Assembly (NCBI RefSeq): GCF_001693515.2
Contig: NZ_CP042968.1
Span: 186,001-250,000, forward strand
Source: Bradyrhizobium paxllaeri
Lineage (GTDB): Bacteria; Pseudomonadota; Alphaproteobacteria; Rhizobiales; Xanthobacteraceae
DNA: 64,000 nt
Direction: 5' to 3'
How positions within the stretch are numbered: position 1 is the stretch's first letter; each line of letters opens with the position of its first letter. The notes under the pieces were generated by a model, which saw only the letters and a list, made by a program, of their open reading frames with translations, was not told the DNA's origin and did no database searches. Shown here in pieces: positions 6,392 to 63,617 of the stretch. The translations under genes and the position numbers were made by a program.

Positions 6392-6479
6392 CGTCATGCC
6401 CGGGCTCGTCCCGGGCATCCACGTCTTTTGCTTAGCACAAGATAAGACGTGGATGGCCGGGACAAGCCCGGCCATGACG
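6392..6479. repeat. Dispersed palindrome, type A (CGTCATGCC...GGCCATGACG)
   Basis: An inverted structure: outer arms CGTCATGcCCGGGC / GCCCGGcCATGACG, and inner arms ATCCACGTCTT / AAGACGTGGAT. A second, diverged copy is at 11663-11780. It lies between NifU-like and tsaB and could also act as a transcription end for the upstream gene. Confidence 0.85.
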
Positions 6480-11662: not shown

Positions 11663-11780
11663 CGTCATGGCAGGGCTTGTCCCGGCCATCCACGTCTTTC
11701 TTGCCGATGGTCCGTCAAGACGTGGATGCCCGGGACATCTAGCGCGAAGACGCGCTTCGCGCTCTTGCCCGGGCATGACA
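11663..11780. repeat. Dispersed palindrome, type A (second copy)
   Basis: The same design as 6392-6479: CGTCATGgcAGGGC at the left, CCGGGCATGAC at the right, and inner ATCCACGTCTTt / AAGACGTGGAT arms. It also contains an extra palindrome GCGCGAAGACGCGCTTCGCGC. It lies between two convergent genes, where it may serve as a bidirectional end. Confidence 0.8.
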
Positions 11781-13508: not shown

Positions 13509-13578
13509 AGCGAAGGCGGAAGCAATCCATCTATCCCCGTGTTGAGGGATGGATTGCTTCGCTTCGCTCGCAATGACG
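13509..13578. repeat. Dispersed palindrome, type B (AAGCAATCCATC...ATGGATTGCTTC...CAATGACGG)
   Basis: Inverted arms AAGCAATCCATC and GATGGATTGCTT are separated by a short spacer and followed by CGCTCGCAATGACGG. Related copies are at 21983-22100, 59830-59905 and 63533-63617. Confidence 0.8.
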
Positions 13579-19877: not shown

Positions 19878-19979
19878 GTCATCACCCGCGAAGGCGGGTG
19901 ATCCAGTATTCCAGAGAAGTCACTGATTAAATCGATGAGCCGCAGCGTACTGGATCGCCCGGTCAAGCCGGGCGACGAC
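19878..19979. repeat. Dispersed palindrome, type E (GTCATCACCCGCG...GGCGACGAC)
   Basis: An internal hairpin CACCCGCgaaGGCGGGTG is followed by an inverted TGGATCGCCCGGTCAAGCC.. block. The GGTCAAGCC core is shared with the perfect inverted repeats around the GIY-YIG gene (41536-41567, 41871-41902), so they are one broad repeat class. Confidence 0.7.
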
Positions 19980-21982: not shown

Positions 21983-22100
21983 CGTCATTGCGAGCGTAGC
22001 GAAGCAATCCATTTCGCAACGAAGCAAGCATGTATTGCTTCCGCCTTCGCTCTCAGAGCTACGGCGGACGGGTCGTCGCTTGCGCTCCTCGCAATGACGG
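21983..22100. repeat. Dispersed palindrome, type B
   Basis: CGTCATTGCGAGCGTAGCGA with AGCAATCCAT at the left and GCTCCTCGCAATGACGG at the right, with extra internal CGCTCTCAGAGCTACGGCGG. It lies between the divergent pirin and GNAT genes. Confidence 0.85.
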
Positions 22101-39077: not shown

Positions 39078-40339
39078 GTCGAGCGTTTCCTTGGTTCGAA
39101 TCATAATCAGGCGGCCTCGGCAAGTTTGTAGGACCAAGTATGGATGACCGGATGGCGGTTGACGTCGTCGATGCCGGCCATGATGCGCTCCTTCAGCTCG
39201 TGTTTTGAGGTCACCCGGATGTGGCGCAACGTCGAGCGGGCAAACTTGGAGAAGAAGCCCTCGATCAGGTTGAGCCAGGAGCCGTGCTTGGGAGTGAAGG
39301 TGAGTTCAAAGCGTCCGACGGGGCGGGCGTTAAGCCACGCTGTGGTTTCTCTCGATATGTGCGCGGAATGATTGTCGAGGATCAGCTTGATTGCAGTGCC
39401 TCTCGGATAAGCGGCATCGAGTAACTTGAGGAATTCAACGAACTCCCGGCTGCGATGGCGGTCTCTCACGAGAGCATGGACCTTGCCGGTCAGCAGATCG
39501 ATCCCGGCCAACAGACTGAGCGTGCCATGACGTTTGTACTCGTGATCCCGCGCAAAGGTGGCGTGAGCCCCAGGCACGGGCGGCAAATCCGGCGCCGTCG
39601 TTGCGATAGCCTGGATTCCTGGCTTTTCGTCGCAGGAGACGATTGCCACCGGCTTGCCTCGCCTCTTCGATCCGGTAGAGGTTTTTTTCAGAACCTCGAC
39701 TTCACGATAGACACACAGGACCTCGGCCATCTTCTGTTCGAATTCGCTGTCGCGGTTCTCCAGATAGTAGTGCACCTTGTGCGGCTTGATTTCCTCTTTG
39801 CCGAGGATCTTGCACACCGTGCCCTGGACCAAATTGGCCAGACACCTGTGCCCTGCCGCTGGTCCATGCACGCGCGCATGGCGTGCCAGCAATCGCGTCG
39901 TCCACAATTCATGCGGATGGCCGTGGTCTTTGGCCTTGTCGCACGCCAGCGACGCCAGCCAAGCTTTGGCCTCCGGCGTGATCGTGGGCTCCCTGCCAGG
40001 CCGCGGCCGATCGTCGAGGGCCCCCAGCGGGCCATGGGCCAGCGCCCGCTCGACACAGCGCTCGACGGTCTGGTGATGGACCCCAAGTCTGCGCCCCACG
40101 GCACAGAACGACGGATTATCCCGGTAGGCCAGCAGCATCTGTGCCCGCGAGACCCGGCTCGCTGGCTCGGTTCTTGACCGCGAAAGAGCCGCCAACGTCT
40201 CAACCTCATCGTCGGTCATCGCCAATTCGATCGCTTGCCGCCATCCTGCCATGATACTGTTCCTCGTCGCGCCAGCCGCAACCGAGGAATCCGCCAACAC
40301 TCAATCAGTTCCAGTGCGGGTTTCTTGGAATCGAACGTC
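39078..40339 (-). mobile_element. IS630-family insertion sequence
   Basis: One transposase gene is enclosed by short imperfect terminal repeats: GTCGAGCGTTTCC after TA at 39076-39077, and GACGTTCGATTCC (minus strand) before TA at 40340-40341, with 9 of 13 positions equal. TA on both sides agrees with the TA-target duplication of IS630/Tc1-type elements. It sits between recF and the modular protein gene. Confidence 0.75.
39107..40252 (-). CDS. IS630-family transposase (DDE)
   Basis: A 381-aa transposase. N-terminal helix-turn-helix (YRDNPSFCAVGRRLGVHHQTVERCVERAL) is followed by the DDE catalytic domain: first Asp in VAIVSCDEKPGIQAI, second in IKLILDNHSAHISRE, and Glu in KHGSWLNLIEGFFSKFARSTL. 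The gene looks intact. ATG 40252 has GAGGAACAG in front; a longer frame to 40300 overlaps the element end. Element and host gene run the same way, so its transcript could affect the modular protein gene. Confidence 0.92.
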   Translation of the reverse strand: MAGWRQAIELAMTDDEVETLAALSRSRTEPASRVSRAQMLLAYRDNPSFCAVGRRLGVHHQTVERCVERALAHGPLGALDDRPRPGREPTITPEAKAWLASLACDKAKDHGHPHELWTTRLLARHARVHGPAAGHRCLANLVQGTVCKILGKEEIKPHKVHYYLENRDSEFEQKMAEVLCVYREVEVLKKTSTGSKRRGKPVAIVSCDEKPGIQAIATTAPDLPPVPGAHATFARDHEYKRHGTLSLLAGIDLLTGKVHALVRDRHRSREFVEFLKLLDAAYPRGTAIKLILDNHSAHISRETTAWLNARPVGRFELTFTPKHGSWLNLIEGFFSKFARSTLRHIRVTSKHELKERIMAGIDDVNRHPVIHTWSYKLAEAA

Positions 40340-40388: not shown

Positions 40389-41528
40389 TCAGGTGCGGCG
40401 GCTTACCTGGCCGGCCTCCACGTCGAAAATCTCGCCGCCCGGGCCGATATCGACGAAGGCGGCTGGATCGGCGCCGGTCATCCAGACCTGCGCGCCGAGC
40501 TTTGCGAGCTCATCGAACAGCGCCTTGCGCCTGCTGGGGTCGAGATGGGCGACGACTTCGTCGAGCAGCAACAGCGGGACGATGCCGGTCATCTCGGCGA
40601 CGAGGGTGGCATGGGCCAGCACCAGCCCGATCAAGAGCGCCTTCTGCTCGCCGGTGGAGGCGTCGCGCGCCGGCATGTTTTTCGGCGCATAGACCACCTG
40701 CAGGTCGGTGAGGTGAGGGCCATCCAGCGTGCGGCCGGCGGCGGCGTCGCGGGCGCGGCTGGCGCGCAGGGTCTCGCGGTAACGATCCTCCACAGCGGTG
40801 GCTGATTCGTTGACCAGTGCGTTTTCCATCCAGCCGTCGAGCATGATCTGGGCCGACGGAAAGGCGGAGGCTTGCCCACGTTCGCGCAGCATCGCCGCCA
40901 GCCGCGTCACAGTCTGGCCGCGCGTGGCGGCAACCGCAACCGCAAGCTCGGCGGTTTCGCGCTCGATCGCGTCACACCAATGGTCGTCATAGTTGCGCAC
41001 TTCGAGCAGGCGGTTGCGCGAGCGTAGCGAACGTTCCAGCGCAGACACGCGGCTGGAATGTTCGCTGTCGATCGCCAGCACCAGCCGGTCGAAGAAGCGC
41101 CGCCGTTCCGAAGCCGCGCCGAGAAACAGCCCGTCCATCGTCGGCGTCAGCCAGACCATCCGCAGATGATCGCCGAACGCGGTCGCCGAACTTACGGGCT
41201 CGCGGTCGATCCGGCAGCGCCGGCTCGTGGAGGCGCCTTCCGCAGCCGGCGCATCGATGCCGGTGCCGAGCGTGGCAAGTCCGAGCGCCCCCTCGACTTC
41301 GGCGGACACCGCCCAGGAGCCGTTGCCCTGATTGTCGGCGACATCCTCCAGCGTCGCGCGCCGCAGGCCGCGTCCGGGCGAGAGAAACGAGATTGCCTCC
41401 AGGCAATTGGTCTTGCCGGCGCCGTTCGGCCCCACCAGCACCACCACGTCGCCGCGCGTCTGCACGCTTCCCGCGCGGTAGTTGCGGAAGTGCGTGAGCG
41501 AAAGACGGTGGATGCGAGAGGGGGTCAT
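40389..41528 (-). CDS. recF: DNA replication and repair protein RecF
   Basis: A 379-aa SMC-like ATPase that loads RecA at gaps with RecO and RecR. Walker A is LVGPNGAGKTN (32-41), the signature is STGEQKALLIGLVLAHA and Walker B is PLLLLDEVVAHLDPSRR. The length is normal. The gene is separated from dnaN by the small GIY-YIG unit, and the IS630 element follows its stop after about 50 bp. Confidence 0.96.
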   Translation of the reverse strand: MTPSRIHRLSLTHFRNYRAGSVQTRGDVVVLVGPNGAGKTNCLEAISFLSPGRGLRRATLEDVADNQGNGSWAVSAEVEGALGLATLGTGIDAPAAEGASTSRRCRIDREPVSSATAFGDHLRMVWLTPTMDGLFLGAASERRRFFDRLVLAIDSEHSSRVSALERSLRSRNRLLEVRNYDDHWCDAIERETAELAVAVAATRGQTVTRLAAMLRERGQASAFPSAQIMLDGWMENALVNESATAVEDRYRETLRASRARDAAAGRTLDGPHLTDLQVVYAPKNMPARDASTGEQKALLIGLVLAHATLVAEMTGIVPLLLLDEVVAHLDPSRRKALFDELAKLGAQVWMTGADPAAFVDIGPGGEIFDVEAGQVSRRT

Positions 41529-41535
41529 ATCAGGT

Positions 41536-41567
41536 TGTCATTGCCGGGCTTGACCCGGCAATCCATC
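41536..41567 (+). repeat. Left 32-bp inverted repeat of the GIY-YIG unit
   Basis: Begins TGTCATTGCCGGG and ends CAATCCATC, with the internal stem TTGCCGGG / CCCGGCAA. Identical on the opposite strand to 41871-41902. Confidence 0.9.
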
Positions 41568-41574
41568 GTCCGCG

Positions 41575-41862
41575 CTAGCGGACAATCTCATCGTACAAAT
41601 CCTTCCAATCGGGATTGCCCGCGACGATTAGATCGATTTTCCACTCGCGCGACCAATGCTTGATGTTCTTCTCTCGTTGAAGCGCGGTCGCAATTGCGTC
41701 GTGTGCTTCGAAGTATACCAGTGTTTTGATGCCGTATCGCTTGGTAAATCCGTCAGCCAAGCCTTCGCGGTGCTGGTAGACGCGCCTCACTAGATTGTTC
41801 GTTACACCGACATACAGTGTTCCGCCGGGTTTGCTCGCGAGGATGTACACCCAATAGGTCAT
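41575..41862 (-). CDS. Small GIY-YIG nuclease-domain protein
   Basis: A 95-aa stand-alone GIY-YIG domain (UPF0213/UvrC-like nuclease family). The family motif is split as YWVYILAS (Y-V-Y-I-L) and GTLYVGVTNNLVRRVYQH, with Tyr, Arg and His in their usual spacing; ...KTLVYFEAHDAIATALQREKNIKHW contains the late catalytic Glu-like helix. The frame continues upstream to 41913, but those residues (VIAGLDPAIHQ) are just a translation of the palindrome, so ATG 41862 is chosen. Possibly acts on DNA; host function is not known. Confidence 0.85.
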   Translation of the reverse strand: MTYWVYILASKPGGTLYVGVTNNLVRRVYQHREGLADGFTKRYGIKTLVYFEAHDAIATALQREKNIKHWSREWKIDLIVAGNPDWKDLYDEIVR

Positions 41863-41870
41863 TTTTGTTT

Positions 41871-41902
41871 GATGGATTGCCGGGTCAAGCCCGGCAATGA
41901 CA
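41871..41902 (-). repeat. Right 32-bp inverted repeat of the GIY-YIG unit
   Basis: A perfect reverse complement of 41536-41567. The internal stem is TTGCCGGG / CCCGGCAA with loop TCAAG. Confidence 0.9.
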
Positions 41903-41909
41903 GTGAGGC

Positions 41910-43028
41910 TCACACCCGCATCGGCATCAGCACGTACAGCGCGCCCTTGTTGTCCTTGTCCTGCACCAGCGTCGGCGAGCCGGGATCGGCCAGGCGCAGC
42001 ACGGCGACTTCGCCTTCGATCTGGGCGGCGATGTCGAGCAGATAGCGCGAGTTGAAGCCGATATCGAGCGCGTCGGAGGCGTATTCGACTTCGAGCTCTT
42101 CGGTGGCGCTGCCGGAATCCGGATTGGTCACCGACAGCACCAGCTTGCCCGAAGACAATGCGAGTTTCACGGCACGGCCGCGCTCGCTGGAAATGGTCGA
42201 AACGCGATCTACCGCAGCCTCGAAATCCTTCTTGTCGACGATCAGTTCCTTGTCGTTGTTCTGCGGTATGACGCGGCCGTAATCCGGGAAAGTTCCGTCG
42301 ATCAGTTTCGAGGTCAGCACCACATTGCCGAGCGTGAAGCGGATCTTGCCCTGCGACAGCTCGATTTTGATTTCGGCTTCATTGTCCTCGATCAGCCGCT
42401 GCACCTCGCCCACCGTCTTGCGCGGCACGATCACGCCGGGCATGCCGGTGGCACCGGAGGGCAGCGCCAGATCGATTTGCGCCAGGCGATGCCCGTCGGT
42501 CGCCACCCCGCGCAGGGTTGCGGCCTTGGCGCTGCCGGCGGTGTGCAGATAGATGCCGTTGAGGTAATAGCGGGTCTCTTCGGTTGAGATCGCAAACTGC
42601 GTGCGATCGATCAGCCGCTTGACGTCGGAGGCCGCAAGCGAGAACGAATGCGTCATGTCACCGGCGGCGAGATCGGGGAAGTCGCTTTCAGGCAGTGTCT
42701 GCAGCGTGAAGCGCGAGCGGCCGGCGCGGATCGCCATCACCGAGCGGTCGCCGTCGGCTTCCAGCACGATCTGCGAGCCGTCGGGCAGTTTGCGGACGAT
42801 GTCGTAGAACATATGGGCCGGCACCGTGGTGGAGCCGCCGGTCGCGGTTTCCGCCGCCAGGGTTTCGGTCACCTCGAGGTCGAGGTCGGTCGCCTTCAGC
42901 GACAGCCTGGCGTTTTCGGCGCGGACCAGCACGTTGCCGAGGATCGGGATGGTATTTCGGCGCTCAACCACGCGATGGACGTGACCCAGCGATTTCAGCA
43001 GTTGCGCGCGTTCGACGGTGACCTTCAT
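41910..43028 (-). CDS. dnaN: DNA polymerase III beta subunit (sliding clamp)
   Basis: A 372-aa sliding clamp with three similar domains. N-terminus MKVTVERAQLLKSLGHVHRVVERRNTIPILGNVLV, middle RLIDRTQFAISTEETRYYLNGIYLH, and C-terminal GALYVLMPMRV are canonical; the last residues form part of the clamp-binding pocket. ATG 43028 is the clean start; the longer frame adds a proline-rich piece. It follows dnaA after a terminator-like structure and thus may have its own promoter in 43029-43220. Confidence 0.96.
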   Translation of the reverse strand: MKVTVERAQLLKSLGHVHRVVERRNTIPILGNVLVRAENARLSLKATDLDLEVTETLAAETATGGSTTVPAHMFYDIVRKLPDGSQIVLEADGDRSVMAIRAGRSRFTLQTLPESDFPDLAAGDMTHSFSLAASDVKRLIDRTQFAISTEETRYYLNGIYLHTAGSAKAATLRGVATDGHRLAQIDLALPSGATGMPGVIVPRKTVGEVQRLIEDNEAEIKIELSQGKIRFTLGNVVLTSKLIDGTFPDYGRVIPQNNDKELIVDKKDFEAAVDRVSTISSERGRAVKLALSSGKLVLSVTNPDSGSATEELEVEYASDALDIGFNSRYLLDIAAQIEGEVAVLRLADPGSPTLVQDKDNKGALYVLMPMRV

Positions 43029-63532: not shown

Positions 63533-63617
63533 CGTCATTGCGAGCGAAGAGAAGCAATCCATGTCGTGGCAGAGTGGATAGATGGATTGCTTCGTCGCTT
63601 CGCTCCTCGCAATGACG
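63533..63617. repeat. Dispersed palindrome, type B
   Basis: CGTCATTGCGAGCGAAGAGA then AGCAATCCAT at the left; GATGGATTGCTTCGTCGC and GCTCCTCGCAATGACG at the right. It separates DUF899 from DUF1428. Confidence 0.85.

Follow-up and report, generated by a model that had tools for sequence, protein, structure and literature searches.

A GIY-YIG nuclease gene between inverted CGTC-type REP palindromes at the dnaN-recF junction of Bradyrhizobium paxllaeri

The stretch of Bradyrhizobium paxllaeri DNA considered here, hereafter the window (64,000 nucleotides, positions 186,001 to 250,000 of contig NZ_CP042968.1), contains a small nuclease gene that stands between two inverted copies of one palindrome. 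The question raised by this locus is whether gene and palindromes form a single unit and, if so, what the enzyme has to do with the repeats that surround it.

The locus, its protein and its palindromes

The gene lies between dnaN and recF on the minus strand, running from an ATG at 41862 to a stop codon that ends at 41575; its 95-aa product matches PF01541 (E 1.3e-15 in a Pfam search) and its best named relatives are from Bradyrhizobium. The features of the locus are as follows:

40389..41528, minus strand, recF, host gene flanking the site
41536..41567, plus strand, REP arm next to recF, 3' of the gene, an exact inverted copy of the dnaN-side arm
41575..41862, minus strand, GIY-YIG nuclease gene, 95 aa, stop codon included (ORF, Pfam match)
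41871..41902, minus strand, REP arm next to dnaN, 5' of the gene, with tag TGTC outward, a 9-bp stem, the 5-nt loop CTTGA and tail CCATC inward
41910..43028, minus strand, dnaN, host gene flanking the site

The two arms are perfect inverted 32-mers (TGTCATTGCCGGGCTTGACCCGGCAATCCATC), 303 nt apart, in which the 9-bp stem ATTGCCGGG and loop CTTGA are accompanied by a CCA tail, and each arm is 7 bp from its neighbour (recF start 41528, dnaN stop end 41910). A preliminary description of this DNA had claimed as much: exact reverse complementarity of the two ends, here confirmed over 32 nt, a gene wholly between them, as the coordinates and the PF01541 match agree, 7 bp to dnaN and to recF, and a hairpin at either end. 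A single arm is predicted to fold alone (-10.9 kcal/mol, z -5.1, equalled by 0 of 200 shuffled sequences), and in a 387-nt single strand of the whole unit the arms are predicted to pair with each other (z -7.6). Within 3 mismatches the 32-mer occurs in the window only as the two arms (0 expected) and in the 8.38-Mb genome 11 times, the reversed-pattern control giving 0. Downstream of recF, at 39107-40300, the window also contains a gene encoding a DDE_3 (PF13358) transposase domain, which we take to be IS630-type.

GIY-YIG nucleases have a catalytic Tyr, Tyr, Arg and Glu, and the window protein shows the superfamily signature, that is the domain together with Y6, Y17, R27 and E64; in an alignment of 42 sequences, a subset of the GIY-YIG sequences at hand, Y6, Y17, R27, H31, E64 and N83 are invariant. 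For 26 of 33 orthologues, compared in the 263 pairs with dS of 0.1-1.5, the median dN/dS is 0.07, and the window gene is judged active by the invariant residues and this low ratio. The AlphaFold2 model has a mean pLDDT of 93, and Foldseek returns as its best fold match the UPF0213 protein 1zg2 (E 4e-5), also the best sequence match in the PDB (E 2.4e-8), with Slx1 at ranks 2-11 (E 3e-3 to 2e-2), I-TevI at rank 26 (E 1.1) and UvrC further down at rank 47 (E > 1). The UPF0213 proteins (PDB 1zg2, 1ywl) are single-domain bacterial GIY-YIG proteins like that of the window, and we know of no repeat association for them. Slx1, a eukaryotic enzyme that works with Slx4 and is to our knowledge not tied to repeats, is a structure-selective nuclease, and of the folds in the PDB search whose function has been characterised it is the nearest. 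It is described as cutting branched DNA near the branch point (PMC6902002), and the roles of the catalytic residues of GIY-YIG nucleases are set out in part in PMC1564403. Homing endonucleases of the I-TevI type belong to the same superfamily, but the window protein has no DNA-binding tail beyond its 95-aa domain, the gene is intergenic with no intron, and the fold match is weak. Genes of GIY-YIG homing endonucleases lie in an intron, an intein or a disrupted recognition site, which the enzyme cuts solely in its uninterrupted form; a REP or a REP pair may be the corresponding target here. PADLOC gave no match for the nuclease at E<=0.01, and no relative of the protein was found in phages.

The palindromes are of a kind that has been named before. 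CGTC REPs, one of the two REP superfamilies defined in 2013, are recognised by a terminal CGTC tag, often TGTC, that stays unpaired. According to Di Nocera, De Gregorio and Rocco (2013, PMC3733652) they have no transposase genes beside them and 'apparently lack a dedicated transposase'; that paper could name no enzyme, and the term GIY-YIG was not found in it. Both window arms carry the tag, as TGTC, on the outside, and the stem (9 bp in the window, 8-9 bp overall, the first pairs AT), the loop of 4-5 nt (5 in the window), the CCA tail and the repetition in the genome (158 matches for the wider class, 11 for the window subtype) all agree with that superfamily, as do the alphaproteobacterial centre of gravity and the frequent inverted pairs. 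What differs is that a nuclease gene is tied to the REPs here.

This arrangement recalls the RAYT/REPtron and REPIN (TnpA-REP) systems (PMC8266576 and PMC3116915) in that a nuclease gene is flanked by inverted REPs that are dispersed in the genome, also as inverted pairs, and in that enzyme and REP co-vary. It departs from them in its enzyme, GIY-YIG being the only Pfam family matched at E<=0.001, with no HUH endonuclease with catalytic tyrosine (Y1 transposase), and in its tag, which is TGTC/CGTC and not GTAG; the chemistry therefore cannot be that of a RAYT. Nor does the unit look like an insertion sequence or MITE, as it has no transposase domain and no target-site duplication is visible by eye in its 7-bp flanks. 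Full-text searches listed no paper whose title or abstract connects GIY-YIG or DUF559 with REPs, and brought up no enzyme for the CGTC REPs; most subscription papers and preprints lie outside those searches and a prior description is possible.

Recurrence of the enclosure and its relation to the protein

Enclosure was scored as the best ungapped inverted repeat spanning the gene, with a threshold of at least 14 that was set from a first control (612 intervals, maximum 13) and kept afterwards. This score is reached by 71 of the 80 best relatives, by all four copies in the host's own genome, by 20 of 26 phylum-sample copies (newly fetched, best-scoring loci only) and by 34 of the 69 copies of a class-wide sample, the remaining 35 of which have no such repeat. 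As the 80 are top hits, 34 of them of the dnaN-recF type, and the 26 phylum loci are top hits as well, the class-wide sample gives the fairer figure. Two short fragments among the GIY-YIG loci were not fetched, and L242 and L243 are unscored.

Random intervals of the same loci reach the threshold in 22 of 2460 cases and neighbouring ORFs in 2 of 169 when not adjacent (6 of 344 with adjacent ones included), and for uvrC, a housekeeping gene with a GIY-YIG domain, the count is 0 of 30 genes with 400-bp flanks. Weak GIY-YIG matches had been considered as a negative control and were dropped, uvrC being taken in their place because 8 of 18 of them are enclosed too. These matches form a distant subfamily (L224-L241, ~35% identical) whose enclosing palindrome is mostly TCATCCTGAG..CTTG..TCGAAGGATGA. 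Shuffling of arms between loci was useless as a control (median score 20, 99th percentile 33) because the flanks contain similar REPs, and it was replaced by the intervals, the ORFs and comparisons across copies of the same genome. In a scan for tagged hairpins, independent of the inverted-repeat score, both flanks have one with its tag pointing outward in 34 of 34 loci of dnaN-recF type, 33 of 46 other best relatives, 21 of 69 of the class sample and 3 of 4 own copies, against 6 of 2426 intervals; both tags point inward in 0/34, 6/46, 4/69 and 0/4 of the same sets and in 1 of 2426 intervals. By these comparisons the nuclease-palindrome unit is real and recurrent. The preliminary description had asked whether homologues are flanked by inverted palindromes, and many are, the proportion in the class-wide sample being about one half; the analogy with RAYT/REP, with a nuclease of a different family, is supported by the flanking inverted palindromes and by the controls.

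Further afield, an Azospirillum lipoferum copy lies between sufB and sufC with CGTC arms, and in Neisseria gonorrhoeae (L300) the GIY-YIG gene lies in a long inverted repeat that begins CGTCATTCCCGCGCAGGCGGGAATCC, a dRS3-like REP. Neisserial CGTC-1 REPs are equated with dRS3 in PMC3733652, and L300 hints that the neisserial repeat arrays are part of the same nuclease-REP system. GIY-YIG copies were also taken from 13 of 35 records of a plasmid collection. Of the 12 copies that were scored, 6 are enclosed at a score of at least 20 and the other 6 (Planktothrix, Spirosoma, Radiobacillus, Photobacterium and two Rhizobium) have neither a repeat of at least 14 nor an outward-tag REP on either side; the thirteenth copy, L313, has a score of 16 and a palindrome that is not CGTC-tagged. 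In the Planktothrix agardhii plasmid (L301) the GIY-YIG relative, without REP arms, is situated between an MmeI-type restriction enzyme gene and DISARM drmA. Two magnetospirilla (L077 and L083) have a unit that is 91% identical over the gene together with ~175 bp before it and ~60 bp after it. No further similarity was found between their fetched flanks, and here the REP pair appears by eye to be nested in a further inverted repeat, AGCCGTTGGG...

A further question is how far the palindrome changes with the protein. The host genome contains four GIY-YIG homologues, each by eye between palindromes of a different class, with inverted-repeat scores of 32, 44, 17 and 31 (L003 being the weak one); L002, L003 and L004 are 58%, 53% and 50% identical to the window protein, and L002 and L004 have an in-frame stop. 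In a same-genome comparison of 57 copies from 19 genomes with several full copies, a copy's own left and right arms match in 30 of 57 cases, against 13 of 184 pairs when the arms come from different copies. Protein identity is correlated with arm similarity (Mantel rho 0.47 for 79 loci, 1 of 1000, the best of 999 permutations being 0.21) among loci with a score of at least 17, with the dnaN-recF set collapsed to L001 and host relatedness uncorrected, which the rho may partly reflect. The same holds by clade within the genus, the window clade having TTGAC/CCATC arms in 22 of 22 fetched loci, all at dnaN-recF (one arm of L377 reads GTGAC), and the 63-68% clade having TTGTC/CCACGT arms in 7 of the 7 loci fetched, where neither dnaN nor recF lies within reach. 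Furthermore L004 is the sister in the tree of L219, a copy from another family, and by eye both have the GCGAG..CGAAGCAAyCCAG class.

There appears to be a limit to this relationship. Of 18 multi-copy cases, 8 have an arm more like that of the nearest protein in another genome, 8 have one more like that of a same-genome copy and 2 are ties, those nearest proteins being only 55-72% identical. At that level of protein identity the palindromes seem mostly to have changed, and beyond close relatives they do not visibly follow the protein; what the comparisons do support is that palindromes differ between copies in one genome and track close protein relatedness. The number of palindromes also goes with the gene, with a median of 8 copies per genome in the 23 genomes that have it against 2 in the 75 without it (two own arms subtracted, one-sided p 3e-4, phylogeny ignored), gene-less genomes of the genus having up to 29 copies of the window palindrome.

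Dispersed REPs, element edges and the dnaN-recF site

The REPs of the host genome were counted for the classes of the window copy, L002 and L004, that of L003 being left out. Within 3 mismatches there are 158 matches to the wide CCGGGCTTG class, 139 to the L004 class (GCGAGCGAAGC) and 19 to the L002 class, the reversed-pattern control giving 0 for each. Those noted in the window are:

6393..6478, unstranded, gene-less outward REP pair of the TTGTC/CCACGTCTT type, predicted to fold as one long hairpin (z -11.0)
11664..11692, plus strand, single REP of the TTGTC type (pattern match)
13549..13577, minus strand, REP of the GCGAGCGAAGCGAAGC class, which encloses GIY-YIG copy L004 (genome 199549-199577)
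19878..19979, unstranded, outward REP pair with inner tails CCAGTATtCCAGAG like those of the L002 GIY-YIG copy (sequence comparison)
21984..22012, plus strand, REP of the GCGAGCGAAGCGAAGC class (genome 207984-208012)
63534..63562, plus strand, REP of the GCGAGCGAAGCGAAGC class (genome 249534-249562)

The pair at 19878-19979 had been taken for the same class as the window arms; it is related to them but belongs to a different class, with the tail of the L002 arms. The TTGTC/CCACGTCTT type is the commonest counted REP of this genome, and a homologue search found no cognate nuclease for it here, such a nuclease being present in other Bradyrhizobium genomes. The earlier idea that the unit is the source of the dispersed palindromes consequently fits its own subtype and fails for this commoner one.

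Among the first 100 of the 158 matches, adjacent REPs form 27 outward, 0 inward and 0 tandem pairs, and among the first 100 of the 139 they form 9, 0 and 0, the outward pairs being spaced 47-61 bp start to start. Seven of 11 fetched TTGTC pairs read exactly REP-CACGTCTT-[variable]-AAGACGTG-REP, with three having this on one side only and one being altered, and CACGTCTT and AAGACGTG likewise extend the REPs inward in the gene units L057 and L275; in pairs of the window type CCATC..GATGG is kept in 5 of 5 fetched, a sixth place being a single REP. As far as these examples go, the dispersed palindromes form gene-less pairs with the same topology as the gene unit. When the window unit is compared with 37 copies elsewhere, DNA similarity ends no more than 3 bp from the outer palindrome edge on at least one side in 24 and extends past the edge in 2. 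In the gltA-lpxB gap of Sinorhizobium meliloti Ak57 (L307) an internally deleted GIY-YIG copy is found beside an intact unit, both within REPs, and this deleted copy is readily seen as an intermediate on the way from a gene unit to a pair without a gene.

At the dnaN-recF site itself 70 of the 97 recF-bearing genomes of the genus were fetched, mostly those with the recF most like that of the window, and 68 junctions were readable; of the two others L124 contains GIY-YIG and L127 shows none. GIY-YIG is present in 15 of the 68, DUF559 in 29, neither in 24 and both in none, so that the gene does not lie at the same place in all relatives, a point on which the preliminary description had been prepared to be refuted. 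A close form of the protein (at least 84%) is found in 23 of 98 genomes of the genus, one of them with a stop, below which there is a gap down to 70%, and the window and the other 22 fetched loci are all beside dnaN and recF. One site in the genus sample together with purifying selection is as expected of a long-resident gene, and the window gene type looks single-site, mostly vertical and hardly moving now; the suggestion of a small mobile unit is too strong, or not upheld, as regards movement at present.

The search for a clean empty site found none, giving junctions in which REPs or half-REPs remain. An outer half-palindrome (CGGCAATGAC or a near form) stands just before recF in 15 of 53 GIY-less junctions (pattern search), and in L108, L112, L116 and L118 two outer halves look joined; similarly Sinorhizobium sp. 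K101, which is gene-less at the Ak57 site, retains a hybrid REP with two outer halves joined at the loop. We read these hybrid half-REPs as probable scars of loss by cutting at the loop, and they could alternatively be pre-insertion targets. In the left arm of L389 and in the dnaN-recF gap of L136 and L149 a REP is apparently split at its loop by an inserted stretch that begins CATAGCCGTCG or GTAGCCGTC, and from these three cases loops may be cut or insertion points.

The DUF559 genes (PF04480) have palindromes too. Thirty of 36 matches were scored and an inverted repeat of at least 14 was found in 20, a figure compared solely with the intervals of the GIY-YIG loci; the palindromes are mostly CCCTCTCCC..GGGAGAGGG. 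Units with palindromes of this type include L086, L100 and other sister junctions and, in the host genome, L251 and L262, the third own copy, L271, having no such repeat. DUF559 thus appears as a second nuclease family with the same arrangement, another palindrome and the same dnaN-recF gap of sister genomes.

A candidate enzyme for CGTC REPs

The explanation that we regard as probable is that the unit is a REP system in which a structure-selective GIY-YIG nuclease takes the place of a RAYT, and that this nuclease is the missing partner of the CGTC REPs. The sequences give the arrangement, its orientation and recurrence, the copy-specific and close-clade matching, the edges, the gene-less pairs, the internally deleted derivative and the purifying selection; that the REP is recognised and cut, how the cut is repaired and which way the segment moves are what we infer. 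The unit at 41536-41902 would be the autonomous form of a REP system of the CGTC type, the one that encodes the nuclease, and the protein would recognise its own REP by hairpin, loop and tail in single-stranded or cruciform DNA, for example on the lagging strand. The base of a hairpin is a branch, and given that Slx1 cuts near branch points a cut at or beside the hairpin can be proposed. Repair of the cut would then copy or remove the segment between two outward-facing REPs, so that with the gene in that segment the gene would move or be lost and with a short spacer a gene-less REP pair would be spread or lost, each nuclease lineage having co-evolved with one palindrome subtype.

An alternative, which we consider unlikely, is that REP pairs are spread by something else and that the GIY-YIG gene is a homing-type gene invading them as landing sites. 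The gene does occupy the spacer place of a REP pair, and GIY-YIG is described as a classic homing-endonuclease fold (PMC1564403), yet the fold search places Slx1 (E 3e-3) above I-TevI (E 1.1). That the commonest counted REP subtype is without a resident cognate gene would suit such an invader, but it would be expected in whatever REP is common in its host, and instead the four own copies are in four palindromes. The arm not following the protein beyond close relatives (8 of 18 cases for, 8 against and 2 ties) speaks for it as well, and is set against sister proteins of different families, such as L004 and L219, that have one class in common.

It seems rather more doubtful still that the gene has a host function, as a resident DNA-processing enzyme for hairpin or branch removal, say, with the palindromes as binding or autoregulatory sites kept with it. 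The long purifying selection (median dN/dS 0.07, 263 pairs) and the one site in the genus sample are what such an enzyme would show, whereas its patchy presence (the close form in 23 of 98 genomes), the in-frame stops of L002 and L004 and a similarity to copies elsewhere that for the most part goes no further than the palindrome edges, as in a mobile unit, argue against it. Coincidence, by which REPs gather between genes and a gene comes by chance to lie between two of them in a dnaN-recF hot spot, is hardly credible even with gene-less REP pairs and DUF559 units in the same gap of relatives, as the arm match is copy-specific and, within the genus, clade-specific, and as a general explanation it is refuted by the interval, ORF, cross-copy and uvrC controls.

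If a REP system run by a GIY-YIG nuclease is the right reading, a wider one suggests itself, which is possible and offered tentatively: a bacterial class of palindrome elements that depend on small stand-alone nucleases rather than on transposases, an arrangement that would have arisen independently in at least two unrelated families, GIY-YIG for the CGTC REPs (the neisserial dRS3-like and the rhizobial ones) and DUF559 for CCCTCTCCC..GGGAGAGGG, each self-enclosed, cutting hairpins by shape and tail sequence and spreading gene-less pairs. The window locus provides a candidate enzyme for the CGTC REPs, with a predicted recognition code of loop base and tail. Should it be confirmed, there would be a second chemistry for the mobility of short palindromes beside that of the RAYTs and a role for a widespread family of small nucleases, with the suggestion that DUF559 does the same for another repeat.
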